Shown here: one piece after another, positions 1-53,900 of the stretch | Layout: each line of letters starts with the position of its first letter | Numbering within the stretch: position 1 is the stretch's first letter | DNA from: Auricularia sp. M13 | Taxonomy: Eukaryota; Basidiomycota; Agaricomycetes; Auriculariales; Auriculariaceae | Direction: 5' to 3' | NCBI GenBank assembly: GCA_037042915.1 | Contig: CM073201.1 | Location: 3,038,001 to 3,102,000 of the forward strand | DNA: 64,000 bases | The notes under the pieces: model-generated | The model's database searches: none | What the model was told of the DNA's origin: nothing | The model's input: only the letters and a program-made list of their open reading frames with translations | Made by a program: the position numbers and the translations under genes

Positions 1-102
1 CTTAGCCGTCGCCTTATGCCAGCCTCTTCGACAACTTGACGGCTGCTCACTCGCAGCCACTAGCAATGGCCCTGTGGCATTCACATACACTACAATAGGC
101 AT

Positions 103-1643
103 ATGGCTAGCTCTCGCACGCCGCCAGAACCAGTGGCCCCGTATATTGCGCGTCCGCCGCAATGGCTGAAGCGAACTCATGCAACGGCTGACATCGGTGA
201 GGCCTGTGTTCCAATCCAACTGAGCATGAATTGATTGCGAATAGGATACTCCGGATTCTACCCACCACTTCCCAATGCGCAGGAGGAACAGCTCACCGAT
301 TCTGCTGTACAGCAAGGCTACACGGCGCCGCCAGAAGTCAATGTGCGTGGCACCAAGTCGCAAGCATTTCTGGCACACGCTGATTTGACTAGGCAGAAAG
401 CTTCAACGCAAAGGGAGAAGCTACCAAGAGTTTTGCAGTGGGAACCGCGCTCGAAGATCTGAAGCAGCTCTTGGAGCTCGTCATTGAACGGCGAGCAGAC
501 AATGCATCCAGACTTCCGTATGCCCATAAAGAAAATTTGCTGTGGCATATGCTAATGTCTTCCTAGACCCTCTACGTTCAAGGTTCCTGGACGGGTCACA
601 TTCACGGAGACACGCCGCGTCGGTTGGGTCAACGAGCTCGCCGACCCGGACACGCCGCTCAGCAAGCTTGGCAAGAGCGTGCCGCACGGATTCAAGGGCC
701 ATGACCTGCTCGAGATGCTGCAGACCAACAAAATTGCCGTCTCTCGAGCGGTATGGTATGTCCGTGTGCTCGGCGCAAACGAGACGCAGGGCATGCGCAA
801 CCGGCCCAACTTCCACCCCAGCATGTACAGTGTGGAGTGGGCCAACGTTGTCACGAGCTACCTCAAGAAGCTGCTAGCCGACATTGCCCTTCCCAGTGCG
901 CCTCGAGCAGGACTCAATATCAAGCAGACATTCAAGAGCATTCTTGCTGAACCCGACTCTCGTGAGCGGTGGTTGACCCGATACTCTTACTGGTGAGTCG
1001 AGCGCGTCTCCCGCAACACAATTTGCCTGGCGGTCGCCCTCTGCGTTTTATTGCAACATGATCTGCGTCGCGGATTTTGTTGCGGCCGGTTGAGAGCACT
1101 CTGATGACTTGCTGACATTTTTCAGTTTGGATCTTGTTCGGGAATTCTACGCAGAGTCTCTTGTGGACCACTGCACGTTTCTGTCCTGGCTTTGTCAACA
1201 CCTTGCCGGCGCCAACCTCGCACAGGCCTTTTTCATCGCTGGCCTGATGGAGGAATACTCGGATGGCCTGCTCGGGCATCGTGCCTTCGCACGACCGGTC
1301 ATAGAGAGCTGCCTGGCTAGGTTGACCGAAATTGAGGCTTCTCCCGTCAAGGAGAATATGGTCTTCCTCTCGTCGACGATCAAATCGCTTCTCCACGTGC
1401 GTCGGCCTCCAAGCCCCCAAATATGTAATAACGCCTATTTCAGCGTGCTTTGGCCGCAGTGCCCGACGCGCTTGTCAGCCCAGGCATCTGGATGTACCAC
1501 TCGGGCATCTTTCGTGACGTCTTGGGCCATGCGGACGACTTCCGCGAAGTCGAGCAGCGCAACGAGGCGCTGGTGTTCCGCATCCTGCCCGAGCGCGCGA
1601 TGGCGGAGGTGCGCATGATCATGGTGGCACGGCGCTGGTCACC
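103..1643 (+). pseudogene. MED12: Truncated MED12 5' copy 1 (exons 1 to mid-6)
   Basis: The exons align with the whole gene at 50,743: 103-196, 245-342, 393-517, 567-992, 1126-1396 and 1444 to about 1623. All are open and in phase, and encode about 398 residues of the Med12 N-terminal region: an amino-terminal segment starting MASSRTPPEP, then the Med12 core with STFKVPGRVTFTE and PHGFKGHDLLE. Intron 3 keeps the branch-point-like CTAAT seen in the whole gene. Exon 6 departs from the whole gene after 1624, and the inserted element at 1644 follows directly. About 1125 C-terminal residues are missing. It has a promoter region like the other copies, so it may be transcribed; I infer it is not a functional full Med12. 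Confidence 0.88.
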
Positions 1644-3097
1644 CATCATGAAAAGGCGTAGGAACTTCCTTCGTGTGACAGTAGGTTGTACTGGAAGTGG
1701 CAACTTGAAAGTATTTATAAGTTTCTACATGACGAGGGCAGAACTCATCATGATGTCCGATAATTACACTCGGATTACACTCCGTACGGAACCTGGTAAC
1801 GGATCGAAATCCGAGTCAAACATGGCAGTAGATTACCATCGATTACCGACGGCTTACTGGCTGCCTCCATGTAGCTGTGATTCTGCGGCAAGCCTGATAA
1901 ATATCCTGGGTCTTCCTGGGTATATGCAGGGTAGCTCAACGAGGTTGCATCCACCCGGAGCTGCTTCTGCATTTCCATTACTGTATTTATCTCATACCAT
2001 TTCGATATCCTAATACAGCAGACAGTTTTGTCGAACAGACGATGCCGACCAAGGCAGCTGGCTCCCAAGGACCGAAGTTACTGTACTTCGATGACGTGTT
2101 CAGGGCCGACGTCATCATGAGCGTCATGGACTGCGGAACCTTGTTCGGGCCGTGTCAACAAACAGCGCGGTGTTCGAAAAGACTTTGCACTCTTTGCTCT
2201 CCCCCTTCCGCTCATCGCGCTTTCGCCAGCCTCAAGCACATCCGCACGCCCTGTCCCAGCTTCAAGCACTTCAGCGGGCCGCTCCGTTCGTCAAGCCCGC
2301 CTGGCCTTCGACCGCTAGCTCTGGAGCTTGCCCTGGGTTACTCCAATGTTGCTCGCGCTTCGTGTCTGCCTGACTCAGTCGTGAATTCAATCCTGGGGCT
2401 TAATCTGATCTTGGGCTATGCTTTGCACCTCTGGGGATGGCTGGCTCTGCTCGTGCTCGTGCCTGCTCCGCTGCCTGTCCTCAATATTGCGGACCAACTA
2501 ATCATTTTCAGATTCATGACATTCAACGCACGCAGCGCCGCGTTTCCCTCACTCCCTCGCCTTACACGCCCTCTCGCACATCCCCCGTCTCCCATACAGT
2601 ACTCTCATCCGCCTGCAACCAGCCGTCGCGTCTTCCACCCTCGTTTCCGGTATATTAGATTTACATCCCCTTATGTCCGTGCTGTACACACGTTCCCAAG
2701 AATATGCACTTGCTTTGCCCTATCTTACCTGTGCCGTGAATACGAGAATCCTAAGCAAAAGATTTCCCAGCGGTCCTGCCGTTCAAACAGCCAGAAACTG
2801 AGCAGCAAGCTACCACAATGCCTGCCTCCTGGGCAATGTTCCGTAATGACAATGGCCGACTTGAATAGCACTGACCAACGAGCGGCCAAGTCTGGTCAAC
2901 CTGGTCGCAAGATTACGACAGATTACGAACGGACTGTTACCCTGCCGGCAAGTGTATCGCCGGCTGAGTTCGTTACACTGGCTTGTCACGCTTCACCACG
3001 CTTACACACGAAGTGAGAGTTGACATGCAATATGACGGATTATAACTCAGTACATTGCGATGTATTATGCTACAATCTATCGGCGGTTTTCATGATG
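1644..3097. mobile_element. 1.45-kb insertion with terminal inverted repeats, family unassigned
   Basis: Unit 5 preserves the empty site (ggtcaccgtggacg at about 42,570). In unit 1 that site is split by 1454 bp beginning CATCATGAAAA and ending TTTTCATGATG, an 11-bp perfect inverted repeat, with CC present on both sides, which fits a 2-bp target duplication. The interior is less GC-rich than the surroundings. It has one long open frame (2042-3016) with unnatural composition and no transposase motif that I can see, so the element looks non-autonomous. It is absent from the other four units, so it entered after the array began to form. A TIR DNA transposon is the likely class; the superfamily cannot be named from the ends. 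Confidence 0.7.
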
Positions 3098-3907
3098 CCG
3101 TGGACGTGGGTTCAAGAATGTACATACGCTGCAATAGACTTGTGTTGACGAGTTCTCAGATGCGTCGAAACGGAGGTGCAGGGTTTTTCCATAGGTACGA
3201 AAAATTTCAACAGGATTTAGTAAAATTTGGCAGAGATTCGGCCCGGCCGAGGCCCGGTATTTACAATGTCAAAATGCACGACCGTGAGGGGGTTACCTTG
3301 GGTGCAGCGACGAGCGAGGGGTGGGTGTTGACGAGCACGACAGGTTGAGGGCATAGTAGAGAGATGGAGGAAGAGACGAGAGAGCTGGGTCCTAACCTGC
3401 ACGCCTTATATACTCGCTGAGAGCGCCTATTCCAAGCGAGGGCGGTGAGAGCTGAGTGATGCCCCGGTACTGACGGACGTTCTCACCTGTGTTTCCCTCG
3501 CCTCTCCGCGCGGAGAGCGCCTCACTCCCTGCAGCAGCGCAGACTCGCTTTTTGGCCTTGACTGCGACCTTGGGGCTCGTCGCTGGGCTGCTCGACCTGT
3601 TTCGGCGGGTGAGAAATGCCGCAGCCGGCCGCGAACATGCGGGGCGATCTCAGCCAAGCGACCCGCTGACACACGCATTTTCACACACCCCGGCCACTTG
3701 CTCCCTTCAGACGGCGTGCTGCATGTGAGACACCTTGTATCCCTGCTGGCTGCAGTGAGATCCACATCTCACACCGTGTACGACGTCCTCAAGACCTTGA
3801 CTTCATTTCTAGCATCAACTCCTGCCCAGATGCTTAAATTTAGGCCCAAAGCATTATGTGTGACTCAGAATGATAGCCTCTAGCGGTGCTGAACGTCATC
3901 CCGTGCT

Positions 3908-4473
3908 CATTGCATCAATGTGGCCACTCCAAACGCCATTCAATCGGATGTAAACGGTTTCGGCAACTTCCTGCGGGCGGGTCTCCCGCCTCTTATAATA
4001 AGTCCCACACTTGAGTTTCCGTCCTCAAATGTACCTAGAATTGCTTATATCTACATGATACATCTATTCTAGGTCCAAAAACCTCGGCCGGGCGCGTCCT
4101 CTGAGTTCCATGGCCGAATCAAGTCTGCCGGCCGATTCTCACCCACTCAGCAAAACTCTCGAAAGGCTCAATTTCGCCAAGATAGGCATTCCCAATATAA
4201 TATGGCATGTATATGTGTCTTTCCTATTAGTTTGGAGCCTCAGAATGCCATTCTCAGCTCTCACCGGACGGGCAAAGTCTTAGAGGTTGGGTTTACAGAC
4301 TCTGGAAAATCTTCATATTCTGAATCCGAAGAGGAAACGGAGCAGTTTGACATAGAAATGGGGGCGTTTGATTGAGAATTGGCGGCGCAATCCAAGATTC
4401 ATTGTTCCGGAGGGTTGTCTACAATGGGGATCGGGAACTCCCGGTCCCTTCGGTTTGGACTGGCCAATCAATG
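3908..4473. mobile_element. Second insertion in unit 1 (about 570 bp), possible TIR element remnant
   Basis: Where the other units read cgtgctgagagtgcatatatggta, unit 1 has about 560 extra bases between cgtgct and atggtac. The ends are loosely inverted: CATTG..TGGCC on the left and GGCCAATCAATG on the right. The inserted DNA is AT-richer than the spacer and contains a 57-residue frame (4202-4375) with an acidic, serine-rich tail. This suggests a decayed mobile element or captured DNA. The alternative, that the other units deleted it, is not excluded. Confidence 0.45.
4202..4375 (+). CDS. Small open frame with acidic Ser-rich C-terminus in the unit 1 insertion
   Basis: This is a 57-codon frame starting MACICVFPISLEPQN and ending with SYSESEEETEQFDIEMGAFD and a stop. 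Its composition (acidic and serine-rich, with few Arg or Ala) differs from the Arg/Ala-rich chance frames that fill the GC-rich spacer, so it may be the last exon of a gene carried by the inserted DNA. No family is recognised, no start context is convincing, and an upstream exon could join it. It occurs only in unit 1. Confidence 0.25.
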   Translation: MACICVFPISLEPQNAILSSHRTGKVLEVGFTDSGKSSYSESEEETEQFDIEMGAFD

Positions 4474-7400
4474 GTACAATTTCTATTGTGATTTTGTATG
4501 CACATACTGGGACTTAAAATATGTACATTGGGACAGCATGGCGGACACAGGCAGTATAGGGAGCTTGGCGGGAGAGGATGGACCGATGCTGAAACGGCAT
4601 CCGCATTTCGTCTGCAGGGGTTGTGCGGGAATCTCGATCGAGGCTCCCAGTCGCAAACGGGCCGCCAACATCAACGTCAGCTCACCTACGATCCACGCAC
4701 GCAGCGGTTGGGGCAACCAAATCCGGAAATAGACGTTGGCCGACGAGGTGCGCGGCGGGCGACGCTGGTGCGAACGGAGGGCGGGGGGACCGGCGCTGAT
4801 GCACAGCCAAGTCGCTCCTGCACTCAGCGCGAGTTGTGCGCCGCTGGCGTAATGCGACGGCAGCGCGAACTAGTGCGCAACGCCATCTCGTCGGCGGGAG
4901 CACCCAGGAAGTTGACCAATGGATAACGCCATCACTCGCGCGCGTGCATGTGCAGCCGTCGTAACCGACGAACGTATTCCGACCCGAGACGGAGGGTGCG
5001 ACGCGCGCGAATTTGCAGAGGGTGTTGACGTGCGTGTACACGGTCAGCTCGCGATCAGCGTGGAGGTCGGGTACATCGTCCGAAGACGTCGCTGTCGGGG
5101 GAGTCTCGTTGCATCCACCGCTTCCGGCACGGAGGAAACAGGCCCTGGAGACGTGAGTGGTCAGCGAGGCCGCAACGAGGTGCATAACGGGCGGGCGAAC
5201 CAGACACTGGCGCGCCACGCGCGGCGATCGGGCGCCGACTTCTGACGTTGGCGCTCGTCGCGAGAGCGCGACGTTGAGCTGCAAGAGAATACCAGGTTCT
5301 GCTCGTCGACTGAAACGCACAAGTGAGCGGCCGAAGGTCAACGGAGTCGTTCCCGGAATTTTGGCCGCCCGGTGAGCTTTCTGATGACTGAGTCAACGCA
5401 CCGATAGTGGGCCGCTACGCGGGTCAACGGAGTCGCCCCCAGGATTTTGACGTCGCGGTGACTTTTTTTATGTCGAATGTGCTGCGCGCATCGCGGGCGT
5501 CAACGCATGGCAGAGCGAATACCGAGTCGGCTGCGGGAACGAGATATAACCTGGTACGTCGAGAGCTCGTCAGTTCAGCAGAAACGGTGAGGTTGGCGAT
5601 CCGACGCACCAGAGGAGTTGCGGAGCGCCGCGCGCTCCGCGTCGAGCACCGAAGTAGACCGTGAACGTCGAAATCGATGTGATTCCCATACAAACACGAC
5701 TTGCGTACCTAGTGGGCGTTGCGCTTTGGCAACGGAGTCGCTCCCAGAAAAATGACCTGGCGGGTCCATTTTTTATGGGAAAGTAGGCGCCCAGGCGTGT
5801 TTTTTGAGGGGAGTCTGCACGGCGCAGCTGGTGCGCGGCGCCGGCTGGAGTGCATGAGCGAGTCACATGGCACACTGTGGAGCAATGCGTCAGAGTAGAG
5901 GTATACGGCGACGCTGCCGTCCACCATAAGGAGAACGAGCCGACGCAAAGCGATACGTCGGGGAGAATGCTTCTGGAGAGCTGCGGCATAGCACAGGTAA
6001 CACAGCGTAATGCGGGTCTGTGCGTATGGTGCGGAGGTGCGGGCGGTGCGCGACAGCGACGTAGGTGGGTAGGGAAGACGGGCGGGGCGATCGTAGAAAA
6101 GCGTAAGAAACTGACCTGGGAAGTAACCCATTTCAAAAACAGGACACTGGTCTGCATGCCATGTATGTGTAAATGGCGCTTGCAGCCCCCGTTGTCTGCG
6201 AAGAAAAAAGTCAGACGCAGAAGACAGACGAGAAAAAGTCTGTTCTCACCTTGTTCTAGCCCTCAGCGACAACCTTCGACGTCGCAAATGCCGCCCAGCA
6301 TTTCAAGTAACCGATAGGCGCAGCGAGCGGTGACGGCAGGCAAAGAGGTCGGCAGCGTGGCGGGGATGGTAGACACAAAAGGGAGAGAAGCGGAGTTTGC
6401 CGATGTGCTCTTCGCGTGAGCACGGTTGTCGGCACTGCTCGCCGGCAGCCGTACTGAAAAGCGTCCTGGCGTCACAGAGTCGTGGAAAAAGATAGAGACA
6501 AGATGCTCGGCTTTTATGCACAAGCCAGACTGCGTCACGAGGTTGAACGTCACGCAGGAATGAGTGATTTCGCTGAGCTCCTCCGAGCCGCGGCTAACCC
6601 GGAAACCGTTTCCATCACTTGCTGTGCAGCAATCTGTTTGCCAGCAGCTCGCGTGTTCTGTCACTTCCTCTAGTATTACCTCATTCCCGCCCCAACTGGG
6701 GCCCGTTCGACTATTGAGACCTGCGCAACAAAGGAACTCTGCACAGTGAAATCCTGTGTGCAGGCTCATCTGCAGAAACAGGGAGATGGTCCATGAGGCA
6801 TGTACCCCGTTCCGGCGCAATGAGCGGTCAAAGATACTCTAAATCTGGTTCTAACTAAGAGGGACTGAATCCCCAGTAGATGCTCAAGATGATTCTCGGG
6901 AGCTCCGCGGCATGCGCGCGGACATTCTCGAAGTGAGCCACCTCAGTGACGTAGCTGAGTGTATGAAGCCGAGATGCGTTGAGAAGCGCACGCAGGGCCT
7001 GACGGCCGGATTTACATGCAGTCATCCCAAACCTAAATTTACTTTTTTTTTTCGCACTTTCGACCATTTGAACATATTGGCAGCATAAATAAGCGTCACT
7101 TGACCTGAGGAGCCGTCAGGGATCACGCTCGCTCGTCGGGAGGGTGCAGAACTGGCGTTCTCACGTGCCGGAGCGGGCCAGAAGACCGCGTGCAAACTCC
7201 GCTCGTGACAGAACAACAGCCCAGAACTCGCCCACGACAACCGGCGCCCGCGGTATCTCTACGTCATCAGCTTTGCATGTACTCCGGCATGCCATAACCG
7301 TATTTATTTCAAGAAAATCGCCAGTGGGACGAGATCTGCGTACGCGGCGCGGTTGCGACGCATTTCGCACATTACTCACTTTCTACTCAGTTACCCTGCT

Positions 7401-10400
7401 TCTCGTTTCACGGCCATCATTCTCCGGTCGATCACGCATCAGATCTGCTGACTCGACGCGTCCAAACGCGGTTGCGCGGCGTCCGTACTCTAGTGCGACT
7501 TTTGGTTTCCTGAGGGTATAGGGGTACCCCTACCCCCAGTGCGCGCACAACGGGCGCTTATTTTGGTTCAGGCGTTGACCTCGACCAGACCCACAAGTTG
7601 AGCGACGTTCGGACGCGAGGAATTCGCTCTGCGCGTCGTGTTCGGGAGGTTAACCCCCCATCACAGGCACTCTCGTAGCCGCGGCACCGGTCCTCCGGCC
7701 TTCCCTCGACACATCGTGCCGCATCACAGCCCTCGCAGTCGTACGATATCCCGGAATAGCTACGGGCTGCGCGAGAAGCGTATAAAGGTAGGCGCGGACG
7801 CGGGTCGAGGTCAGCATCGGGTCTTCCTCCCACCTTCCTCGCATCGTCTCGACCGCTCTCAACCTCGACTTCGACGTCTTCGACGCTAAACTGCCCACGC
7901 ATGACCCACTCGCAGCTTGGCGTCGGAGAACGGACGCGATTCGCGACGCTCAGCTTCGCCGGCGTCACCGTCAACAGCATTCGCAACGTCTCCTCGACGC
8001 TGCGATCGGCGGTCCGGTATATGTACGCTTCCTAATTGAATCCTGTGTGCGACACATGCTAATACATCATCATCTCTTGGAATCCATTCAGAAATCCGTC
8101 CACCGTCGTACAAGCTGGCGCTCTCTCGATCGGCAGCCACTCTCGCGGTCAACCGCGGCTTCCGTTCCCTCCCCTGATCCCAAACGGTGAGTGCTCCAGA
8201 TATTCAATATCCCGCGCCGAGCTGATACATCATCATTTCTTGGAATGCATTCAGGATGCGTCCGTCAACGCGCGAGACGGTGGCGGCGTTCTCTCGCGCA
8301 CCATACCGATTCCCGTCGCCATCACTCGTCAACGCCGTCTTTCTCCGCAAATCGTCGAGGTAAGCATTCTGGATTCACATTTTCTATCCCCTTATCGATA
8401 GATCATCATCTCCTGGACCCATATGTGCCCGTTGTTGTTCAGTCAAATTAGTTTGCGTGCGATCGTTCGACCCGCTACCACCGTTTGGACGCATCGGCTG
8501 CATCGGCAACGTTGGTGTGAGTACCATGCCGTCCTGAGTATCCTATCGCTCGCTGATTCATCGTCATTTCGATGCTTGCAGAACGTTTGTCGCTGTTGGG
8601 CCAGCGGGACGACCGACTTCACATCGACGCATAACGTACGTTTCACTCTCATTTTTCGCGCATCAACGTCGGTGCTCATCGCAATATGCAATGAATACGC
8701 TCAGGCGCCATCGACGAGGCGTGCGGATCGCGGGACGGGAAAACAATGTTGTCATTAGCGAAACTGAGCATAATGGTGCGTACACCCATTCCCCGTACCG
8801 CCCATCGCAAGCGCGCATGCGCATGTTATTCTGGTCATCGAGGCGCAGCTCTGGCCGCCGGAATCTCGGGCTACAGCAGCGGTGGACGCTGTTGCGTGTC
8901 CGAGTCGGTGCTGCCGAGCCGAGGGCACACCACTCGAACCGCGGCGAGCCGCGCGCGTAGCGCTCGTTTTCCATCGTCTATGGCATGGTGTCAATGCCTG
9001 ACGGGCAGCAGGAAGCGCGCGAGAGCGAGACCGTACCGCGGCGTCCGTTGTCGTGCGCGCCGGCCGAAAACGGCCATATCGCACGCACCGCGCACAGGGC
9101 GTGCACGATGCACCGCATGCGCGTTCTGCGTCGTTGACTCCATGCGTGGCGGCCGGGATATTGACGTTGCGCATCGTGCGCGCGAGATCGTGCACGGGCG
9201 GTTGGCTCGCGCGGCCCGACCGATAATGGCCATATCGCCCGAACCGCGTTGAATCGCGCGCACTGCGACGCATATCCGAGTTCAGTGACCTCGGAGCTGT
9301 CCACAGCGGAAGTGGTGTGCGCGCCGTATGCCTGCGGAGTCCGTGAGACTCATCGGCAGCTCCGATGCGCACGCGCCGCGTTTCCCACCGCGTCGCGCAT
9401 CCGAAGCTCGTTCTGCGGGTGGGAGGTCGTAGAATGAGCTATGCGCGATGTCAGCGTGCTGTTGGAATCGGAGAACGAGCCTCGGACGCACGCTGAGCGT
9501 CGGTCTGTCGTCAGATCCGACCCAAGCTGCCGAACTCGTTCCGCGTGTTCGACGCGGAATTTGCGTGTCGGGGATGGATAATGCAGTCCTATGCTCACTC
9601 AGGAAAGCGTTCTTGAAAGCCGTGGGGTCGTGAGCGTTGAGATCGCGAACTGAGTCAAACCAAAAAAAAAATCGGACGCACCGAGTTGAGCACAGAAGGC
9701 GTCTTGAACGCCGGCATTCGATAAACTTCTTAAATGATAGCCCGTAGCCCGTAATCTTGAGTTGTTTGCACGAGGGGTGGATACTGCGCGCGCGATCGTC
9801 TGGGCGGACAGAAAGTCACAAAAGCAAAACTTGTCCAAACTCGAAAAGAACGGTACGCACGGATAGCCCGATCAAAGCCGCATGCCGACCCTGTGTTGAA
9901 TTTGCAGATTTCGAAGGTGTTCGGCCTGCGCGTGCGACGCGATGCCGAATGAGCTGTTAAAAAAAGTTGTTCAATTCCGACGATAAGGGTGCGTACGGAT
10001 AGCCAGGATGAAGCCGCATGCTGATATGATGTTGTATTTGCAGAATGCGGACTTGGACGGTGGGAACGTGCTTCGCGGTGGCGGCCGGCAGATACCCCGC
10101 GCTCAGGCTTGCGCTCCGTCCCGCGCGTTGTCGAACGGCCCCGCGGGCGCTGCATGCTGCAGCAGGTTGACTGCACCAGCTCCCGTAAGAGCTGCGCGAG
10201 GTCGACGAGTTCTAATCGCTTCAGCGAGGTGAGTCGCGGTCACTACCCAACTCAGTAAAACTGACGGCCGTTCACTACGCACACACACTCACACGTTGCT
10301 TTTGCAGGCTACTCACGGTCTTTTCGAGGCGGACGGTTTGGGAGGGCAATGAGTCTATTGCGGTCTATCTACGCGGTCGTACTATGTACACGCGTGACGT

Positions 10401-11798
10401 TCATTCCACCTCCTCGGCGCGCGCGGCGCAGATTCTACGGGCGCGTGAGCTCGAGCTGGCGTCAAGGGCCTGCGGTACGTACCCTTTCGCCGATCCGCGG
10501 CGTTTTGGCGGTCGCTGATCTGCAGTCGAGCAGGTTGCGTCCAGTCGAGCGCGGCCAAGTTGAAACTGAGCTCCGGGTCCGTCAACATGCGCGTTTCGAA
10601 GTACCATTCAGTCGAGCTCACCTTTCAGACGATGCCGCCGCACAAGGTGCTGTGCATCGCGTTTGTTCGCACCAGGAATCGATTTTGCACGGTGCGTGGA
10701 ATTTGTCTGCTTGCTGGATCAGCATGCAGTCGGCGCGCGCAGACTGTGGGTACGCACTCTGCACTGGTGGGCGTCAGAGTCAATGCGCGGTGCGTTGGCT
10801 GGCACCCGTTTCGAGCGCTCGCTGAGCAGCTTCGCGTTCGGGTTCGCCGTTTGAGCTCTTTCTGCGAGCGCATCGCCGTCCGCCGAATAATTGGCTGACT
10901 GTGACCGATGAACAGCTGCGAGCTCGTTAGCAAAAATCGAGAATTAGAAATATTGTAATTAGTACTGACCGGAGCGGCGCGTTTGGGGCGGCGGGAGACG
11001 GCGACGAGCAGCGGTGAGCAGGTCGGGGCAGCGTCAAGGCAGCGCACGCTCGCCGCTGGCAAAGGTCGGGAGATGGCGGAGGAGCGCGCAGAGGGCGCGG
11101 TCGCTGCTGATGACGACGAGCAACGACGCGACGAGTGAAGGCGGCGTGACCGTGAATCGTGCTCGTCGGTGAAGGTGACGAGTAAGGCCTTGCGCGGTGA
11201 TGGCGCTCGATGGAGTTGAGCACGGCTGGGCGCGCGTCCAGCATGCTGCCGCGAGCGATGCCGGGCGTGCGCACGCCGCGGTCGTCGCTGCCGACGGCGG
11301 CGAGGTGGGCGCAGAAGACGGCGCGTGGGCAGTGCTGCTGGCGGCGAGCGCGCGGTATGTATGCGGCGAGCGCGGCTAGCGTGCGAGCCACGGACGGCGG
11401 GCGCGCTCGAGCTGGGCGGGCGGGCGTCCAGCATGCGGGCGCGAGGCGATGCCGGGCGTACGCACGTCGCGGTCGTCGCTGCTGACGGCGGCGAGGTGGG
11501 CGCAGACGACGGCGCGAGGCCACCGCAGCTGGCGGCGACGGCGGTCTGGCGGCGAGCGCGCGGTATGCGGGCAGCGAGCAAGCCGCGGGCGGCGGGCTGC
11601 AGCTGGCGCGCTCTGCGTCGTCGGCAGCAGCGTGCGCGCGGGCGGGCTGCAGAGCGCGCGAATGGTCGAGGACGGACAGGGTGGGGCGGAAGTCAGAGTC
11701 GTGCCGGCTTATGCCAGGCTCTGCAACGACTTGACGGCTGCTCGCAACGCAGCCACTAGCAATGGCCCTGTGGCAATCACATACACGACAATAGGCGT

Positions 11799-17515: not shown

Positions 17516-17523
17516 TATAAAGG
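17516..17523 (+). promoter_or_regulatory. TATA box TATAAAGG of the spacer plus-strand transcription unit
   Basis: TATAAAGG is followed by a pyrimidine-rich stretch and an ATG 130 bp downstream (17,646). The box and the spacing are conserved in unit 1 (7781 to 7901) and in units 3-5 (27,261, 37,004 and 46,759). This is the best core-promoter candidate in the spacer. Confidence 0.45.
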
Positions 17524-41031: not shown

Positions 41032-44000
41032 ATGGCTAGCTCTCGCACGCCGCCAGAACCAGTGGCCCCGTATATTGCGCGTCCGCCGCAATGGCTCAAG
41101 CGAACTCATGCAACGGCTGACATCGGTGAGGCCTGTGTTCCAATCCAACTGAGCATGAATTGATTGCGAATAGGATACTCCGGATTCTACCCACCACTTC
41201 CCAATGCGCAGGAGGAACAGCTCACCGATTCTGCTGTACAGCAAGGCTACACGGCGCCGCCAGAAGTCAATGTGCGTGGCACCAAGTCGCAAGCATTTCT
41301 GGCACACGCTGATTTGACTAGGCAGAAAGCTTCAACGCAAAGGGAGAAGCTACCAAGAGTTTTGCAGTGGGAACCGCGCTCGAAGATCTGAAGCAGCTCT
41401 TGGAGCTCGTCATTGAACGGCGAGCAGACAATGCATCCAGACTTCCGTATGCCCATAAAGAAAATTTGCTGTGGCATATGCTCATGTCTTCCTAGACCCT
41501 CTACGTTCAAGGTTCCTGGACGGGTCACATTCACGGAGACACGACGCGTCGGTTGGGTCAACGAGCTCGCCGACCCGGACACGCCGCTCAGCAAGCTCGG
41601 CAAGAGCGTGCCGCACGGATTCAAGGGCCATGACCTGCTCGAGATGCTGCAGACCAACAAAATTGCCGTCTCTCGAGCGGTATGGTATGTCCGTGTGCTC
41701 GGCGCAAACGAGACGCAGGGCATGCGCAACCGGCCCAACTTCCACCCCAGCATGTACAGTGTGGAATGGGCCAACGTTGTCACGAGCTACCTCAAGAAGC
41801 TGCTAGCCGACATTGCCCTTCCCAGTGCGCCTCGAGCAGGACTCAATATCAAGCAGACATTCAAGAGCATTCTTGCTGAACCCGACTCTCGTGAGCGGTG
41901 GTTGACCCGATACTCTTACTGGTGAGTCGAGCGCGTCTCCCGCAACACAATCTGCCTGGCGGTCGCCCTCTGCGTTTTATTGCAACACGATCTGCGTCGC
42001 GGTTTTTTTTGCGGCCGGTTGAGAGCACTCCGTGATGACTTGCTGACATTTTTCAGTTTGGATCTTGTTCGGGAATTCTACGCAGAGTCTCTTGTGGACC
42101 ACTGCACGTTTCTGTCCTGGCTTTGTCAACACCTTGCCGGCGCCAACCTCGCACAGGCCTTTTTCATCGCTGGCCTGATGGAGGAATACTCGGATGGCCT
42201 GCTCGGGCATCGTGCCTTCGCGCGACCGGTCATAGAGAGCTGCCTGGCTAGGTTGACCGAAATTGAGGCTTCTCCCGTCAAGGAGAATGTGGTCTTCCTC
42301 TCGTCGACGATCAAATCGCTTCTCCACGTGCGTCGGCCTCCAAGCCCCCAAATATGTAATAACGCCTATTTCAGCGTGCTTTGGCCGCAGTGCCCGACGC
42401 GCTTGTCAGCCCAGGCATCTGGATGTACCACTCGGGCATCCTTCGCGACGTCTTGGGCCATGCGGACGACTTCCGCGAAGTCGAGCAGCGCAACGAGGCG
42501 CTGGTGTTCCGCATCCTGCCCGAGCGCGCGATGGCGGAGGTGCGCATGATCATGGTGGCACTGCGCTGGTCACCGTGGACGTGGGTTCAAGAATGTACAT
42601 ACGCTGCAATAGACTTGTCTTGACGAGTTCTCTCAGATGCGTCGAAACGGAGGTGCAGGGTTTTTCCATAGGTACGAAAAATTTGAACAGGATTTAGTAA
42701 AATTTGGCAGAGATTCGGCCCGGCCGAGGCCCGGTATTTACAATGTCAAAATGCACGACCGTGAGGGGGTTACCTTGGGTGCAGCGACGAGCGAGGGGTG
42801 GGTGTTGACGAGCACGACAGGTTGAGGGCATAGTAGAGAGATGGAGGAAGAGACGAGAGAGCTGGGTCCTAACCTGCACGCCTTATATTCTCGCTGAGGG
42901 CGCCTATTCCAAGCGAGGGCGGTGAGAGCTGAGTGATGCCCCGGACGTTCTCACCTTTGTTTCCCTCGTCTCTCCGCGCGCAGAGTACCTCACCACCTGC
43001 AGCAACGCAGGCATGCTTATTGGCCTCGAATGCGACTCTGGGGCTCGTCGCTGGGCTGCTCGACTTGCTTCGGCGGGCGAGAAATGCAGCAGCCGGTCGG
43101 GGCGATCCTAGCCAAGCGACCCGCTGACACACGCATTTTCACACACCCCGGCCACCTTCTAGTTGTGAGACAACCTCCCGGTGCTTACTGCATGTTGTAT
43201 AACCTGTTTTTCTACTAGCTGCACTGGCGGCAACGTCTCAAGCTCGTTGTGCAGCATACGACCTCCCGAAGACCTTCTCGTCATTCCCATCAACTTCCTG
43301 CCCAGCCATACACTTCAATTTAGGCTCAATACATTGTGTGTGACTCAGAATGATTGTCTCTAGCCGCGTTCAACGTCATCCCGTGCTGAGAGTGCATATA
43401 TGGTATGATTTCTATTATGGCACATACTGTGACAGGACATATGTACACTGGGCTAGCATGACGAACACAGGCAGTATAGGACGCATGGAGGGAGAGGAAG
43501 GACCGATGCAGAAACGCCATCCGCATCGCGTCTGCAGGCGGTTGCGCGGGAATCCAATCGAGGCTCACAGGCGCAAACGGCGGCGCCAACATCAAGGTCA
43601 GCTCACCTATGACCCACGCGGGCAGATGTCCACGCGGCGAATGCAGCGGTGGGAAAACCAGATCCGGAAACAGACGTTGGCCGACGAGATGCGCGGCGGG
43701 AGACACTGGTGCGAACGGAGGGCTGGGGAACCGGCGCTGGCCTCAGCGCGAGTTGTGCGCCGCTGGCGTAATGCGACGGCAGCGTGAACCAGTGCGCAAC
43801 GCCATCTCGTCGGCGGGAGCGCCCAGGGAGTTGACCCATGGAGAACGCCATCACTCGCGCGTGTGCATGTGCAGCCGTCGTAACCGACGAACAGGTTCCG
43901 ACGTGAGACGGAGAGCGCAACGCGCGCGAATTTGCAGAGGGTGTTGGCGTGCGTGTACACGGTCAGCTCGCGATCAGCGCGGAGGTCGGGTACATCGTCC

Positions 44001-47000
44001 GAAAACGTCACTGTCGGGGAAGTCGCGTTGCATCCACCGCCTCCAGCGAGGAGAAAACAGACCCTGAAGATGCGAACGGTCAGCGAGGCTGAAATGAGGC
44101 GCATAGCGTGCGGGTGGACCATTCAGTGGTTTTGGAAGCACGCCACGCGATGTCGCGCGGCGATCGGGCGCCGACTTCTGACGTTGGCGCTCGTCGCGAG
44201 AGCGCGACGTTGACCTGCAAGAGAACGTCAGTTTCGGCTCGTCGACTGAAACGCACCATTAGTGAGGGGCCGAAGGTCAACGGAGTCGTTCCCGAAATTT
44301 TGACCTTGCGGTGAGCTTTTTGATGGCGATTTCGCGGTGCGCGCTGCGGGCACCAATCGCGCAGCCACGCATTGGCGACGCATGCCGCGTCTGCGGCGGG
44401 AACGACATATGACCTGGCGCGTTGAGAGCTCGTCAGTCCCGCAAAAACGGTGAGTGTGGCCATCCGACGCACCAGCTGAGTCGCGGAGCGCGCGGCACTC
44501 CGCGTCCAGATTTCGACCGCGAGGATGTCACAGGTCTCCAAGATCTGTTAGTGCGATTCCGACGCAGACACGGCTTGCGTACCTAGTGGGCGTTATGCTT
44601 TGGCAACGGAGTCGCTCCCAGAAAAATGACCTCGTGGGTACATTTTTGATGGGAAAGTAGACGCCCAGGCGTGTTTTTTGATGGGTGTCTGCACGACGCA
44701 GCTGGTGCGCGGCGCTGGGAGCGACGTGTCCGTCAAACGCAGAAATTTCACCTGCACAGATGTTAGTGCCGCCAGACGCTCGATATCAAGTACTCACGAC
44801 CTGGAGCACAAGCAAGTTCGACGACACACTGGAAATGCGTCAGAAAAGTCGCGAAGGAAATGATTGGGGATACGGCAGAGCGAGCGCATACGAAGCGATA
44901 CGTTGACGCGTATGCTTTCGGTGAGCTGCGGTTGAACACGACACGCAGAACAGCGCAGTGCAATTCTGCATTGGAAATGCGGAGGTGTGAACCGCGCGCG
45001 AGAGCGATGTGGATGGCGAGGGTTGATGGGTGGGATTATGGCAGAAAAGGAATATAAGCTCACCTGGAATGCAATGCATCCTGAACACCGGTCGCATAGT
45101 AGATCCGTTCACATAGCGCTTGACGCTTCCGTTGTCTGCAAAGCAGAGACTTCAGACGCAGAAGACGCAGGAGAAAAAAAACTGTTCTCACCTTGTGTCG
45201 GCTCTCAACGAGAACCGTGGACTCCAGACGCAGTCCGGCATGTCTGTGCGGCGGTAGGAACAGCGCGAGACGGTCGCAGGACAAGAGGTCGGCAGTGCGG
45301 GATGGTGGACAGAGAAGGGAGAGAAGCGGAGTTTGCCGATGTGCTCTTCGCGTGAGCACGGTTGTCGGCACTGCTCGCCGGCAGCCGTACTGAAAAGCGT
45401 CCCGGCGTCACAGAATCGTGGGGGAAGAAAGAGAAAAGATGCAAGATCTTTATGCACCGGCCAGATTGCGTTACGAGGTTGAACGTCACGCAGGGATGTG
45501 TAATCGCTGCTGAGCTCCTCCGAGCCGCGGCATCATGTGCTGTGCAGCGATCTGTTTGCCAGCATCTCGCGTATGTTGCCACTCCTACTGGCATTACCTC
45601 ACGCCCGCTCTGGCTTTGTTACGCGAAAGGGACTGGTACGAGCATTGAAACCTACGCAGCAGAGGAGCTGTGCCGTCTGTACCTCGAAGTCGGTGCATCT
45701 GTGGCACAGAAACCGCGAGAGCTCAAGGACACATGGGCCACGCATTCTATTTCCAATGCAACGAGCAGCTCAACACACTATTGAATGGTCGGGCTGAATA
45801 TCCGGTGGTGACGCGAGATAACGCTTGTGAGTTCCGCGGCACGCGCGCGGTCGTCCGATTCCATGCATACATTCTCGAGGTATGCTAATGATCTCTCTCT
45901 GATTCAGTGGTGGGAAGCTAATGCTATGGAAATAATGAAGCTCAACGGATACAGAAGCCCCTGGAGGGGCTAACGGCCGGATTTACATGCAGTCATCCCA
46001 AAGCTGAATTCACTTTTTTCGCACTTTTGACCACTTGAACATGTTGGCACGCATACAAAAACGTCACGTGACCTCAGGAGCCGTCAGGGGTCACGCTCGC
46101 TCGTCGGGATGGTGCAGAAATGGCGTTCTCACGTGCCGGAGCGGGCCAGAAGCCCGCGTGCAAACTCCGCTCGCTGAAGAACAACAGCCCAGAACTCGCC
46201 CGCGACGACCGGCGCCTGCCATCTCGCCACGTCATAAACTGCGCAGGTACTCCGGCATGCCATAACCGTGTTCATTTCAAAGAAATCGCCAGTGGGACGA
46301 GATCTGCGTAGGCGGCGCGGTTGCGACGCATTCCGCGCATTACTCACTTTCCACTCAGTTTTTCTGCTTCTCGTTTCACGGCCATCATTCTCCGGTCGAT
46401 CGCGCATCAGATCTGCTGACTCGACGCGTCCAAACGCGGCCGCTCGGCGTCCGCGCTCTAGTGCGAGTTTTGGCTTCCTGAGGGTATAGGGGTACCCCTA
46501 CCCCCACTGCACGCTCAACGGGCGCTTATTTTGGTTCAGGCATGAGCCTATACCAGAATCACAAGTTGGGCGACGCTCTGAGGCGAGGAATTCGCTCTGC
46601 GAGTCGTACTCGGGTGGCTAAACCAAGGCTAAACACCCATCACACGCACTCTCGTAGCCGCGGCACCGGTCCTCCGGGCTTCCCACGGCACAGTCGTAAC
46701 GCATCAGCACGCGCAGTCGTACGATGGCCCGGAATAGATACGGGCGGAACGAGCAGCGTATAAAGGAAGGTGCGGAAGCGGATCGAGGTCAGCATCGGGT
46801 CTTCCTCCCGCCTTCTTCGCCCTTCCTCGCATCCTCTCTACCGCTCTCAGCCTCGGCTTCGACGTCTTCGACGCTGACCTGCCTACGCATGACCCACTCG
46901 CAGCTCGACGTCCGCGAACGGACGCGCTTGCTTCGCCGGCGTCGCCGTCAACAGCATTCGCATCCTCTCCTCGACGCTGCGATCGGCCGTCTTGTCTAGG

Positions 47001-50000
47001 TACGCTTCCTAACAGAATCCTGCGTGTGACACATGCTAATACATCATCATCTCTTGGAATCCATTCAGGAATCCGTCCACCATCGTGCAAGCTAGCTAAC
47101 GCTCTCTCGATCGGCAGCCACTCTCGCCGTCAACCGCGGCTTCCGTTCCCTCCCCTGATCCCAAACGGTGAGTGCTCCAAATATTCAGTATCCCGCACCG
47201 AGCTGATACATCATCATTTCTTGAAATGCATTCAGGTTGCGTCCGTCAACGCGCGAGACGTCGGCGGCGTTCTCTCGCGCACCGCAACTCGCTACCGATT
47301 CCCGTCGCCGTCCTTCGTCAACGCTGCTTTTCTCCGCCAATAGTCGAGGTAAGCATTCTGGATTTGCATTGACGTTCCCCTTATTGATACATCATCATCT
47401 CCTGGACCCATATGTGCCCGTTGTTGTACAGTCAAATCAGTTTGCGTGCGATCGTTCGACCCGCTACCACCGTTTGGACGCATCGGTTGCATCGGCAACG
47501 TTGGTGTGAGTACCATGCCGTCCTGATTATCCTATCGCTCGCTGATTCATCGTCGTTTCGATGCTTGCGGGACATTTGTCGCTGTTGGGCCAGCGGGACC
47601 ACCGACTTCACATCGACGCATAACGTACGTTTCACTCTCATTTTTCGCGCATAAACCTCTGTGCTCATCGCAATATGCAGTGGACACACTCAGGCGCCAT
47701 CGAAGAGGCGTGCGGATCGCGGGACGGGCAAATAATGTTGTCATTGACAAAACTGGGCATAATGGTGCGTACACCCCTCCCACGAGCTACCTATCGCAAA
47801 CGCGCATGCGGATGTCATTCCGAGCATCGAGGCGCACCTCTGGCTGCCCGAATTTCGGGCTGCAGCAGCGGTAGACGCTGTTGCGTGTCCGAGTCGGTGC
47901 GGCCGAGCCGAGGGCACACCGCTCGAACCGCGGCGAGCCGCGCGCGTAGCGCTCGTTTTCCATCGTCTACGGCATGGTGTCGATGCCTGACGGGCAGCAG
48001 GAAGCGCGCGAGAGCGAGACCGTACCGCAGCGTCCGCCGTCGTGCGCGCCGGCCGAAAACGGCCATATCGCACGCACCGCGCACAGGGCGTGCACGATGC
48101 ACCGCATGCGCGTTCTGAGTCGTTGACTCCATGCGTGGCGGCCGGGATATTGACGTTGCGCATCGTGCGCGCGACATCGTGCACGGGCGGTTGGCTCGCG
48201 CGGCCCGACCGATAATGGCCATATCGCCCGAACCGCGTTGAATCGCGCGCACTGCGACGCATATCCGAGTTCAGTGACCTCGGAGCTGTCCACAGCGGAA
48301 GTGGTGTGCGCGCCGTATGCCTGCGGAGTCCGTGAGACTCATCGGCAGCTCCGATGCGCACGCGCCGCGTTTTCCACCGCGTCGCGCATCCGAAGCTCGT
48401 TCTGCGGGTGGGAGGTCGTAGAATGAGCTATGCGCGATGTCAGCGTGCTGTTGGAATCGGAGAACGAGCCTCGGACGCACGCTGAGCGTCGGTCTGTCGT
48501 CAGATCCGACCCAAGCTGCCGAACTCGTTCCGCGTGTTCGACGCGGAATTTGCGTGTCGGGGATGGATAATGCAGTCCTATGCTCACTCAGGAACCCGTT
48601 CCTGAAAGCCGTGGGGTCGTGAGCGTTGAGATCGCGAACTGAGTCAAACCAAAAAAATCGGACGCACCGAGTTGAGCACAGAAGGCGTCTTGAACGCCGG
48701 CATTCGATAAACTTCTTAAATGATAGCCCGTAGCCCGTAATCTTGAGTTGTTTGCACGAGGGGTGGATACTGCGCGCGCGATCGTCTGGGCGGACAGAAA
48801 GTCACAAAAGCAAAACTTGTCCAAACTCGAAAAGAACGGTACGCACGGATAGCCCGATCAAAGCCGCATGCCGACCCTGTGTTGAATTTGCAGATTTCGA
48901 AGGTGTTCGGCCTGCGCGTGCGACGCGATGCCGAATGAGCTGTTAAAAAAAGTTGTTCAATTCCGACGATAAGGGTGCGTACGGATAGCCAGGATGAAGC
49001 CGCATGCTGATATGATGTTGTATTTGCAGAATGCGGACTTGGACGGTGGGAACGTGCTTCGCGGTGGCGGCCGGCAGATACCCCGCGCTCAGGCTTGCGC
49101 TCCGTCCCGCGCGTTGTCGAACGGCCCCGCGGGCGCTGCATGCTGCAGCAGGTTGACTGCACCAGCTCCCGTAAGAGCTGCGCGAGGTCGACGAGTTCTA
49201 ATCGCTTCAGCGAGGTGAGTCGCGGTCACTACCCAACTCAGTAAAACTGACGGCCGTTCACTACGCACACACACTCACACGTTGCTTTTGCAGGCTACTC
49301 ACGGTCTTTTCGAGGCGGACGGTTTGGGAGGGCAATGAGTCTATTGCGGTCTATCTACGCGGTCGTACTATGTACACGCGTGACGTTCATTCCACCTCCT
49401 CGGCGCGCGCGGCGCAGATTCTACGGGCGCGTGAGCTCGAGCTGGCGTCAAGGGCCTGCGGTACGTACCCTTTCGCCGATCCGCGGCGTTTTGGCGGTCG
49501 CTGATCTGCTGTCGAGCAGCCTGCGTCCAGTCGAGCGCGGCCGAGTAGAAACTGAGCTCCGGGTCCGTCAACATGCGCGTTTCGAAGTACCATTCAGTCG
49601 AGCTCACCTTTCAGACGATGCCGCCGCACAAGGTGCTGTGCATCGCGTTTGTTCGCACCAGGAATCGATTTTGCACGGTGCGTGGAATTTGTCTGCTTGC
49701 TGGATCAGCATGCAGTCGGCGCGCGCAGACTGTGGGTACGCACTCTGCACTGGTGGGCGTCAGAGTCCAATGCGCGGTGCGTTGGCTGGCACCCCGTTTC
49801 GAGCGCTCGCTGAGCAGCTTCGCGTTCGGGTTCGCCGTTTGAGCTCTTTCTGCGAGCGCATCGCCGTCCGCCGAATAATTGGCTGACTGTGACCGATGAA
49901 CAGCTGCGAGCTCGTTAGCAAAAATCGAGAATTAGAAATATTGTAATTAGTACTGACCGGAGCGGCGCGTTTGGGGCGGCGGGAGACGGCGACGAGCAGC

Positions 50001-50656
50001 GGTGAGCAGGTCGGGGCAGCGTCAAGGCAGCGCACGCTCGCCGCTGGCAAAGGTCGGGAGATGGCGGAGGAGCGCGCAGAGGGCGCGGTCGCTGCTGATG
50101 ACGACGAGCAACGACGCGACGAGTGAAGGCGGCGTGACCGTGAATCGTGCTCGTCGGTGAAGGTGACGAGTAAGGCCTTGCGCGGTGATGGCGCTCGATG
50201 GAGTTGAGCACGGCTGGGCGCGCGTCCAGCATGCTGCCGCGAGCGATGCCGGGCGTGCGCACGCCGCGGTCGTCGCTGCCGACGGCGGCGAGGTGGGCGC
50301 AGAAGACGGCGCGTGGGCAGTGCTGCTGGCGGCGAGCGCGCGGTATGTATGCGGCGAGCGCGGCTAGCGTGCGAGCCACGGACGGCGGGCGCGCTCGAGC
50401 TGGGCGGGCGGGCGTACGCACGTCGCGGTCGTCGCTGCTGACGGCGGCGAGGTGGGCGCAGACGACGGCGCGAGGCCACCGCAGCTGGCGGCGACGGCGG
50501 TCTGGCGGCGAGCGCGCGGTATGCGGGCAGCGAGCAAGCCGCGGGCGGCGGGCTGCAGCTGGCGCGCTCTGCGTCGTCGGCAGCAGCGTGCGCGCGGGCG
50601 GGCTGCAGAGCGCGCGAATGGTCGAGGACGGACAGGGTGGGGCGGAAGTCAGAGTC
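40934..50656 (+). repeat. Tandem array unit 5 (9723 bp, older and mosaic)
   Basis: This unit differs from units 2-4 in blocks. The MED12 part from intron 4 on matches the whole gene at 51,700 (ACACGATC, an eight-T run, CTCCGTGATG). The junction and the next 330 bp match unit 1. After about 42,900 it matches units 2-4, but with a 12-base segment (CTGGGCTAGCAT near 43,447) that those lack. The last kilobase has private changes, including loss of a splice acceptor near 49,510 (CTGCAG to CTGCTG) and the 32-bp deletion near 50,413. It looks like the oldest of the near-identical group and a recombination product. Confidence 0.92.
41032..42623 (+). pseudogene. MED12: Truncated MED12 5' copy 5 (mosaic)
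   Basis: Exons are 41032-41125, 41174-41271, 41322-41446, 41496-41921, 42057-42327 and 42375 to about 42554. The first part, including the intron-3 CTCAT change, is of the unit 2-4 type. From intron 4 onward it carries the variants of the whole MED12. Exon 6 keeps GTGCGCATGATCATGG and then leaves MED12, adding about 20 unrelated residues before a stop at 42623. The predicted protein has about 398 Med12 residues plus the tail, or 121 residues if intron 3 is retained. Confidence 0.88.
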
Positions 50657-50742
50657 GTGCCGGCTTATGCCAGGCTCTGCAACGACTTGACGGCTGCTCG
50701 CAACGCAGCCACTAGCAATGGCCCTGTGGCATTCATAGGCAC
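42575..50742. other. Spacer of unit 5, directly upstream of the whole MED12
   Basis: Same landmarks as the other spacers: minus-strand intron series at about 44,752-45,191, palindrome near 46,487, TATA at 46,759, plus-strand intron series from about 47,000, 55-nt intron pair near 48,839-49,028, GC-rich block at about 50,190-50,600. It provides the promoter region of the functional MED12. A change at 49,510 removes one candidate acceptor, so the plus-strand candidate gene is more decayed here. No recognisable protein gene. Confidence 0.7.
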
Positions 50743-50925
50743 ATGGCCAGCTCTCGCACGCCGCCAGAACCAGTGGCCCCGTACATTGCGCGTCCGCCGC
50801 CATGGCTCAAGCGGACGCATGCAACGGCCGACATCGGTGGGCCGCCTCGACGTCATCCGCGCACGTGTTAATTGTCCTCAGGCTACGCGGGCTTCTACCC
50901 ACCACTGCCCAACGCGCAGGAGGAA
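50728..50925 (+). other. Diverged 5' segment of the whole MED12 (different sequence type)
   Basis: Across this 200-bp segment the whole gene differs strongly from all five truncated copies, although the sequence on both sides is about 99% identical. Intron 1 cannot be aligned with theirs. Exon 1 has six differences in 94 bases, five of them silent, and the start of exon 2 has mostly silent changes. A short leader segment also differs. Two MED12 lineages therefore meet here. Confidence 0.75.
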
Positions 50926-53900
50926 CAGCTCACCGATTCTGCTGTACAGCAAGGCTACACGGCGCCGCCAGAAGTCAATGTGCGTGGCACCAAGTCGCAA
51001 GCATTTCTGGCACACGCTGATTTGACTAGGCAGAAAGCTTCAACGCAAAGGGAGAAGCTACCAAGAGTTTTGCAGTGGGAACCGCGCTCGAAGATCTGAA
51101 GCAGCTCTTGGAGCTCGTCATTGAACGGCGAGCAGACAATGCATCCAGACTTCCGTATGCCCATAAAGAAAATTGGCTGTGGCATATGCTAATGTCTTCC
51201 TAGACCCTCTACGTTCAAGGTTCCTGGACGGGTCACATTCACGGAGACACGACGCGTCGGTTGGGTCAACGAGCTCGCCGACCCGGACACGCTGCTCAGC
51301 AAGCTCGGCAAGAGCGTGCCGCACGGATTCAAGGGCCATGACCTGCTCGAGATGCTGCAGACCAACAAAATTGCCGTCTCTCGAGCGGTATGGTATGTCC
51401 GCGTGCTCGGCGCAAACGAGACGCAGGGCATGCGCAACCGGCCCAACTTCCACCCCAGCATGTACAGTGTGGAGTGGGCCAACGTTGTCACGAGCTACCT
51501 CAAGAAGCTGCTAGCCGACATTGCCCTTCCCAGTGCGCCTCGAGCTGGACTCAATATCAAGCAGACATTCAAGAGCATTCTTGCTGAACCCGACTCTCGT
51601 GAGCGGTGGTTGACCCGATACTCTTACTGGTGAGTCGAGCGCGTCTCCCGCAACACAATCTGCCTGGCGGTCGCCCTCTGCGTTTTATTGCAACACGATC
51701 TGCGTCGCGGTTTTTTTTGCGGCCGGTTGAGAGCACTCCGTGATGACTTGCTGACATTTTTCAGTTTGGATCTTGTTCGGGAATTCTACGCAGAGTCTCT
51801 TGTGGACCACTGCACGTTTCTGTCCTGGCTTTGTCAACACCTTGCCGGCGCCAACCTCGCACAGGCCTTTTTCATCGCTGGCCTGATGGAGGAATACTCG
51901 GATGGCCTGCTCGGGCATCGTGCCTTCGCGCGACCGGTCATAGAGAGCTGCCTGGCTAGGTTGACCGAAATTGAGGCTTCTCCCGTCAAGGAGAATGTGG
52001 TCTTCCTCTCGTCGACGATCAAATCGCTTCTCCACGTGCGTCGGCCTCCAAGCCCCCAAATATGTAATAACGCCTATTTCAGCGTGCTTTGGCCGCAGTG
52101 CCCGACGCGCTTGTCAGCCCAGGCATCTGGATGTACCACTCGGGCATCCTTCGCGACGTCTTGGGCCATGCGGACGACTTCCGCGAAGTCGAGCAGCGCA
52201 ACGAGGCGCTGGTGTTCCGCATCCTGCCCGAGCGCGCGATGGCGGAGGTGCGCATGATCATGGCGGAAATTGCGGCGCTGAACGCCATGGCGCTGGACAC
52301 CGACCTGCACGCGCTCGCGATGCGCGGCACGAAGCTCGCCGTGCTCTTCACGTGGGCGTCGTCTCCTGCACAGCACGGACTGCACCGTCCGTTCCTCGTC
52401 AGCACGCTGCTGCAGCGCCGCGGCGAGGAGGGCGAGGCGCTGCAAGACGCGCTCGTCGATTGGCTCGAGCAGGACGACGCGAGCGTGTCGTCCCGCGGGG
52501 CCGCACGCCTCCTGGGCGAGCTCGGTCGCGTAGGCCTGTTCTCGTACGGCCGATTCCTGGACCGCATCCTCGCCCGCGGTGAAGTTGCGCGCCACCGCGC
52601 CGTGCTGCGCGAGATGCCCGTCTGGCGCGAGAACGGTGTTGTGCTCAGGCAGCGGGCGATTGCGCTGTATGGCCGGCAACGCAAGAGCGACGAGGAGGAT
52701 ATTCAGCGCACGATACGACAGGAAATACGGCAAGAACTTCCCCAGCTTTTCGGAGGGACGATGCCGGAGCTCGAGCCTACCGGCGCACTCAAGTCTAGGA
52801 TGCCGACGCTTTTCGGAGCACATCGATTTGAGCAGATCCGTACCGTGGGATTATGGCTCACGCCCATCGTTTTGGACAAGATCAACAAGTACGTAGCGCC
52901 GCCAGAGGCCCAGATTTCAGCGCGCTGACCTACGACTTAAGGGGTTTATTCAACGATGTGAACGTCGCTCTTCGGACATACAGCATTTTCAGCGAGTTGC
53001 TTTCATCCACACAGTGCTTTGCATGTCTTTGCGACGTGAGCATTTACATATTCTTCTTTCCCAGCCGGTGCTCACATGGCGGGTATTATAGGTGAATGTG
53101 GTTCTGTTAAAGCAACCCATGGCTCTCGAGTTGCTCATGGCGGTTGTAAGCAACTTGCGCCGCTTCGCCTTCCTCTTCAAATGCATGGACGTCGTACCGC
53201 AACTCGACGACGCGCTCGCCGTTGCCCATCACTGCGTGCGGTCGCGCCCAGCTCAACTGCGCGCGCTTCTTGGTCTCCTCGAGGCGCTCAACCGGGGCGG
53301 ACAATCAACCACTACACAGCTAGTCGCGGCTGACGTCGAAGCGTCCATTGAGGCACTACGTCCACCTCTGACCAGTCCGGAAGATATTCCGACGCAAGTG
53401 TATGAACTCGATGGACTGGCGAATGACCCTGCACCAAATGCGCCCTCTATCCTCGCGCACTCCATGTGGACCAAGTTCAAGCGCAAGCCGAATTGGGGCC
53501 TCACAGCTGCAGAGAGCACCTTTGCGAGCCTGCGCGACCTCCAGCCCGTCCCGGAGGATTGCGTGTTCAAGTTCACGACGTTCCTCTGGGAGGTCGACCA
53601 GCTGCTGGCGGGCGCGCTCGACGCGTGTGTGCTTGACTGCCTGCGTGGACCGGTTTTCGAGGATATGCGCACGTGCGGGACGGACACCTGGGAAGTGGTC
53701 GGTGTCATACTCGTCGAGCTCGTCGCGCGCGGGTGCGTCAGCACGCAGACCGTCCTGCGCGGCATAGCGTACCCCGCATGGAGCCTTGGTGCGCGGCCAG
53801 ACCTAAGCGACGAACAGGCCGAGATGCATGCCGGTTTCTTGATGATGAGCGTCAAGCTAGGCAAGACTCTGCTGCTATGCACGGCCGACCCGAATGGCGA

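Follow-up and report, generated by a model that had tools for sequence, protein, structure and literature searches.

A tandem array of truncated MED12 5′ copies with open reading frames ahead of the complete gene in Auricularia sp. M13

The MED12 locus of the basidiomycete Auricularia sp. M13 lies in a stretch of contig CM073201.1 (assembly GCA_037042915.1, positions 3,038,001 to 3,102,000 of the forward strand), which was analyzed over its full length of 64,000 nucleotides and is referred to here as the window. Self-comparison of the 64-kb window revealed six MED12 5′ regions, all in one orientation and arranged head-to-tail. The first five (U0–U4) break off within exon 6, and U5 alone continues as a whole gene. 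This bears out the original prediction, made from the same DNA before any database search, that truncated copies precede one complete MED12; five is a minimum, since the left edge of the window falls inside the array. No further copies were found in the flank within the window. The distances between consecutive start codons (the first position of each MED12 copy in Table 1) are, in order, 11696, 9745, 9745, 9743 and 9711 bp. The predicted period of 9723–9745 bp is therefore about right for the later spacings but not for the first, which at 11.7 kb is enlarged by a 1,454-bp insertion with inverted-repeat ends and by a diverged spacer.

The exon boundaries of the complete gene were placed by hand, using the reading frame and GT-AG splice sites. 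Exons 1–6 occupy 50743–50836, 50882–50979, 51030–51154, 51204–51629, 51765–52035 and 52083–52888, and exons 7–12 occupy 52921–53035, 53092–54211, 54264–54538, 54589–54987, 55040–55115 and 55165–55952. The U5 product contains the Med12 domain (PF09497, E=1.2e-22; score 80.5 bits, cut-off 25) and gives a weak LCEWAV domain match (PF12145, E=0.0038, 16.6 bits, under the cut-off of 23). Its matches to chains of known structure include yeast Med12 (7kpv_C, E=6.1e-16) and MED12 (8tq2_C, E=1.6e-5). A search with a 302-residue query confirmed no MED12 relatives among 34 genome-contig and 19 viral-contig candidates, from collections poor in eukaryotes. A separate origin of U5 exons 2–6a, as judged by codon usage, was considered and rejected, third-position GC being 258/365 in these exons and 805/1166 elsewhere (P=0.60).

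The junctions at which the truncated copies leave MED12 have one far side and several near sides. The far side is GTGGACGTGGG at four joins (13339, 23084, 32829 and 42574), and the identical far side at the U0/U1 join begins at 3100, parted from exon 6 by the insertion. On the near side, three forms were distinguished: that of U0, that common to U1, U2 and U3, and that of U4. TGGTCACC closes the near side in both U0 and U4, which are one letter apart within their common stretch; in U1–U3, 15 bases are missing and the near side closes with GCATGCGC. The claim of a single break in exon 6 thus holds for the location of the truncation but not for the identity of the junctions. All five truncated copies share an exon-6 deletion relative to U5, which indicates that they descend from one tandem join that was altered later.

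The insertion looks like a transposon, to judge from its 11-bp inverted ends (CATCATGAAAA/TTTTCATGATG) and the CC flanking it on both sides. It is present solely at the U0/U1 junction, with no second copy in the window, and no Pfam family was detected in its six frames. Because the reading frame of U0 runs on into this insertion, the U0 product is longer than those of the other truncated copies. The repeated unit was also considered as a possible transposon carrying a captured gene piece, but a Pfam search for transposase, helicase or other element domains in six frames of 13300–21600 and 1600–6600 was negative, a result that leaves room for non-autonomous elements.

Table 1. Coordinates of the MED12 array and associated features, in positions of the window.
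Feature	Position	Strand	Remarks
U0 truncated MED12, exons 1 to mid-6	103..1643	+	open product 527 aa
Insertion, 1,454 bp, at U0/U1 junction	1644..3097	.	11-bp inverted ends
U1 spacer	3100..11798	.	left part, to 9049, diverged from U2
U1 truncated MED12	11799..13339	+	open product 444 aa
U2 spacer, 8.2 kb	13340..21543	.	sole domain trace is the G-beta relic
U2 truncated MED12	21544..23084	+	open product 444 aa
U3 spacer	23085..31288	.	whole-unit comparison with U2
U3 truncated MED12	31289..32829	+	open product 444 aa
U4 spacer	32830..41031	.	whole-unit comparison with U3
U4 truncated MED12	41032..42574	+	open product 420 aa; holds conversion tract
U5 spacer and promoter of intact gene	42575..50742	.	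comparison with U4
Diverged block spanning exon 1 and intron 1 and reaching into exon 2	50732..50913	+	U5 compared with U1
U5 complete MED12	50743..55952	+	12 exons, 1530 aa
Exon-6 stretch in which truncated copies carry deletions, then exit MED12 homology	52251..52314	+	last common letters near 52314

Divergence between the units is mosaic. Aligned over the whole unit (9,742 bases), U2 and U3 have 0 substitutions between them and differ by 6 indel bases, some of which fall in short runs; U3 and U4 differ by 10 substitutions over the whole unit, and the U5 spacer differs from that of U4 by 40 substitutions in 8,148 aligned bases. Up to position 9049, 829 differences in 5213 aligned bases (16%) separate the U1 and U2 spacers, with identity varying unevenly between 60 and 97% per 250-column step and one step being pure gap. 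Beyond 9049, to the end of the unit, only 3 substitutions in 4,287 were found. Between U0 and U1, 10 of 50 aligned bases differ to the left of position 54, compared with 12 of 1560 from 54 on. Since U2 and U3 are free of substitutions while the U1 spacer is far from that of U2, homogenization appears to have been patchy and recent, acting upon an older array; patchy conversion and unequal exchange on such an array would account for the boundaries of unit-to-unit identity.

Two local features bear on exchange with the intact gene. At 6 columns within 51696–51997 (U5 coordinates), U4 carries the state of U5 and not that of U0–U3; this stretch is a conversion tract and shows directly that U4 and U5 have exchanged sequence. 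The second feature is a 182-bp block (50732–50913) in which U5 and U1 differ at 36 of 182 aligned bases, between flanks of 28 and 261 aligned bases with zero differences. Ahead of the block, U1 and U5 show 0 substitutions over 432 aligned bases, barring a 32-base indel. At the block's nine synonymous columns fixed between the two groups, the base is always G or C in U5 and always A or T in the truncated copies, a one-way pattern.

The coding sequences of the truncated copies are clean. All five are open across the 394 codons compared, and 25/25 introns have GT-AG ends, in agreement with the earlier claim of open, spliceable exons in every copy. Variants that tell the copies apart include the exon-1 block, codons 122, 140 and 361–362 for U0, an intron-3 site reading CTCAT or CTAAT, and the tails at the junctions. 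The neutral expectation for the synonymous share of changes, calculated with the spectrum of substitutions seen in the diverged spacer, is 0.267 (27%). Against this value, synonymous changes are in excess both among U0–U4 (9 variable coding columns, 7 synonymous and 2 nonsynonymous; P=0.002) and between U0–U4 and U5 (15 fixed columns, 11 synonymous and 4 nonsynonymous; P=0.0002), although the counts of 9 and 15 columns are small and the columns are non-independent where conversion moves several together. The 2 nonsynonymous changes are also few relative to the variable intron sites, 5 of 324 (Fisher P=0.018). Within the 182-bp block, divergence between U5 and the truncated copies is 0.34 at synonymous sites (dS) and 0.03 at nonsynonymous sites (dN), and intron 1, which lies in the block, differs between U1 and U5 at 21 of 45 aligned bases, with GT-AG retained in both. 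The truncated reading frames look constrained, an observation new to this analysis. The deficit of nonsynonymous change would fit conversion from intact MED12 alleles, which we prefer, or selection on N-terminal proteins.

No comparable signal was found in the spacers. In the diverged U1/U2 spacer, the mean synonymous share over 330 overlapping windows in six frames is 0.19, with no overall coding signal; the top windows (5/6 and 4/6 synonymous) lie near a G-beta fragment, and one of them contains stops. This G-beta relic is located on the minus strand at 14620–14760 in U2 and 4943–5089 in U1. Its WD40_Gbeta matches (E=1.9e-6 and 2e-5) fall far under the curated cut-off, and its structure-chain matches reach E=8.5e-10 for a chain in which the protein occurs twice and about 1e-4 for the others. 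In the 250-column steps around the relic, U1 and U2 are 88–92% alike, above the steps further right. Six frames of one unit (13300–21600) yielded no other protein domains in the spacer, a CD59 match (E=0.026) being taken as chance, and Rfam and tRNA scans of the whole window were empty. The Pfam scans of the window covered the plus strand up to 60800, the minus strand outside 51000–55000 and, for the near-identical spacers of U2–U5, that of U2. Decay by repeat-induced point mutation (RIP) or a similar process, or by methylation, was considered and rejected: the observed/expected CpG ratio is 0.97–1.42 in 12 segments, and the differences between the U1 and U2 spacers are bidirectional.

Upstream of the intact MED12, a 159-bp unit occurs twice in tandem (50250–50562, 80% matches). 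The spacer half holding this repeat is richer in GC and CpG (0.63 and an observed/expected ratio of 1.41 in U2). Two further genes were recognized downstream of MED12: a short-chain dehydrogenase gene at 56926–57593 on the plus strand (PF00106 in two frames, E=2.2e-17 and 1.3e-8) and a prenyltransferase beta-subunit-like gene at 62558–63579 on the minus strand (PF00432 in two frames, E=9.4e-56 and 3.2e-9).

The 394 residues common to all copies hold the Med12 domain at 110–172, as located with Pfam. In an alignment to 8tq2_C, the segment EEQL...QQG falls on EDEL...KQG of the human activation helix, so that the CDK8-activation helix is present with its acidic triad and with residues matching human L36, Q43 and G44, human numbering having been mapped by counting along the alignment. 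The helix residues are invariant in all six copies, and no codon between 42 and 122 is variable. According to two reports, the N-terminal helix of Med12 positions the T-loop of CDK8, with hot spots at L36, Q43 and G44, and the N-terminal segment of MED12 switches on CDK8 (PMC10666765, PMC8146938). As the fragment includes this helix, the product of a truncated copy, if made, would carry the CDK8-activating part of MED12, minus most of the rest.

We favor, with a probability of roughly 0.6, a partial tandem duplication that was re-amplified and patchily homogenized, its clean frames being kept by exchange with intact MED12 alleles. A single duplication event would have had one breakpoint within exon 6 of MED12 and the other ~8.2 kb ahead of the start codon of the gene. 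Such a join would leave the last copy, farthest downstream, as the intact gene and every copy before it 5′-complete but 3′-truncated. The unit would then have been re-amplified by unequal exchange, recently for the segment comprising the right part of U1, U2 and U3, and gene conversion would homogenize the units patchwise. The truncated copies would be by-products with no needed function, and conversion would have run from intact alleles into them, which is the most likely source of their clean frames. We favor a tandem duplication because the topology matches a breakpoint inside the gene and because the exon-6 deletions and the far side of the join are common to all truncated copies. Exchange and homogenization are favored because of the columns shared by U4 and U5 and because the 182-bp block stands out between difference-free flanks. 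The spacer, being without sign of coding constraint, further favors the scenario as a whole.

Several observations weigh against this scenario. Nonsynonymous change is scarce among the truncated copies themselves (2/9 coding columns). At the 5 columns where the minor state is unlike that of U5, 4 changes are synonymous (P=0.02); U5 itself cannot supply such U0-specific, mostly synonymous change, so the scenario needs another MED12 allele, unseen here. The block divergence, which is not assignable to a branch without an outgroup, is a further difficulty: if half of it had accumulated on a neutral truncated branch, ~16 nonsynonymous changes would be expected, and the number observed is 3 (P=1e-4). 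For a quarter of the divergence on that branch, P=0.04, and for a tenth, P=0.6.

These same observations give weight to the strongest alternative, which we regard as possible but clearly less probable: the truncated copies may be genuine genes for Med12 N-terminal proteins of 420–527 amino acids, with the activation helix and the Med12 domain but lacking the greater part of the HEAT solenoid and the C terminus. The proteins would bind cyclin C–CDK8 off Mediator and alter kinase-module activity, and selection together with conversion would keep the frames clean. The open frames and intact splice sites, the synonymous excess within the copies and relative to U5, the shortage of nonsynonymous change relative to introns, the retention of splice ends in a heavily diverged intron 1, the invariant helix and the U0-specific changes inexplicable by conversion from U5 alone all agree with it. 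Against it, the ends after exon 6 vary, with three junction forms and tails of unrelated sequence; the U0 upstream sequence is diverged beyond about −50; and the statistics depend on few changes, whose signature exchange with intact MED12 could equally yield. The proposal of the original prediction that the copies could supply N-terminal Med12 fragments gains plausibility from the scarce nonsynonymous change and the invariant helix, but repeated overwriting by intact MED12 alleles would give an equal pattern. More tentatively still, the array may represent a family of Med12 N-terminal proteins that is under selection, multicopy and evolving in concert. It would then be a free-standing CDK8-activating module encoded in tandem beside its parent gene, and the copy number of the activator fragment could set kinase-module activity.

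It is unlikely that the array acts in cis, with extra promoters, transcription towards MED12 or changing copy number tuning MED12 expression. The copies do include the upstream region, and their orientation is towards MED12; U1 and U5 are free of substitutions ahead of the block outside the indel. However, the promoter side of U0 is diverged, and homogenization also explains the near-identity. Least probable of all is an assembly artefact, either an inflated copy number or a haplotype chimera: U2 and U3 are free of substitutions, so either could be an assembly duplicate, and haplotypes could be mixed in a dikaryon or diploid, but substitutions, junction form or insertion set each of U0, U1, U2/U3, U4 and U5 apart, so the whole array is not a single unit copied by the assembler.

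The duplication and exchange scenario agrees with known tandem segmental duplications under concerted evolution in its head-to-tail units with one common join (in three variants), the intact gene downstream, near-identical neighboring units, patchy homogenization and mosaic identity. It differs in that the repeat ends inside a core regulatory gene and that the truncated coding columns show few nonsynonymous changes. The Candida TLO genes, reported to be a subtelomeric family encoding Med2 (PMC5908203, PMC10721199), were offered earlier as an analogy. The likeness lies in the multiplication of a Mediator subunit gene region in a fungal genome; TLO genes are subtelomeric Med2 homologs and not 5′ gene fragments in tandem, whereas the copies described here are truncated MED12 5′ regions in one array beside the intact gene, and none is a complete Med2 homolog. 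In the Triticeae, a retained partial gene duplicate is reported to confer resistance and has been proposed to be functional and not a pseudogene (PMC6092874). This, too, is a truncated duplicate with a proposed function, but it involves another gene in another kingdom and is backed by functional evidence, whereas the case here is made from sequence. Among the titles listed in literature searches on MED12 or Mediator duplication, basidiomycete Med12 and CDK8, truncated duplicates and tandem arrays, none is about such an array.

If the copies do supply the activating segment without the remainder of the protein, the array would be nature's counterpart of the fragment experiments and would link the activity of the kinase module to the number of gene copies. 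If they are passive, the locus would be a clear case of conversion with an essential-type neighbor keeping truncated copies functional-looking and would call for caution when reading dN/dS in tandem duplicates.

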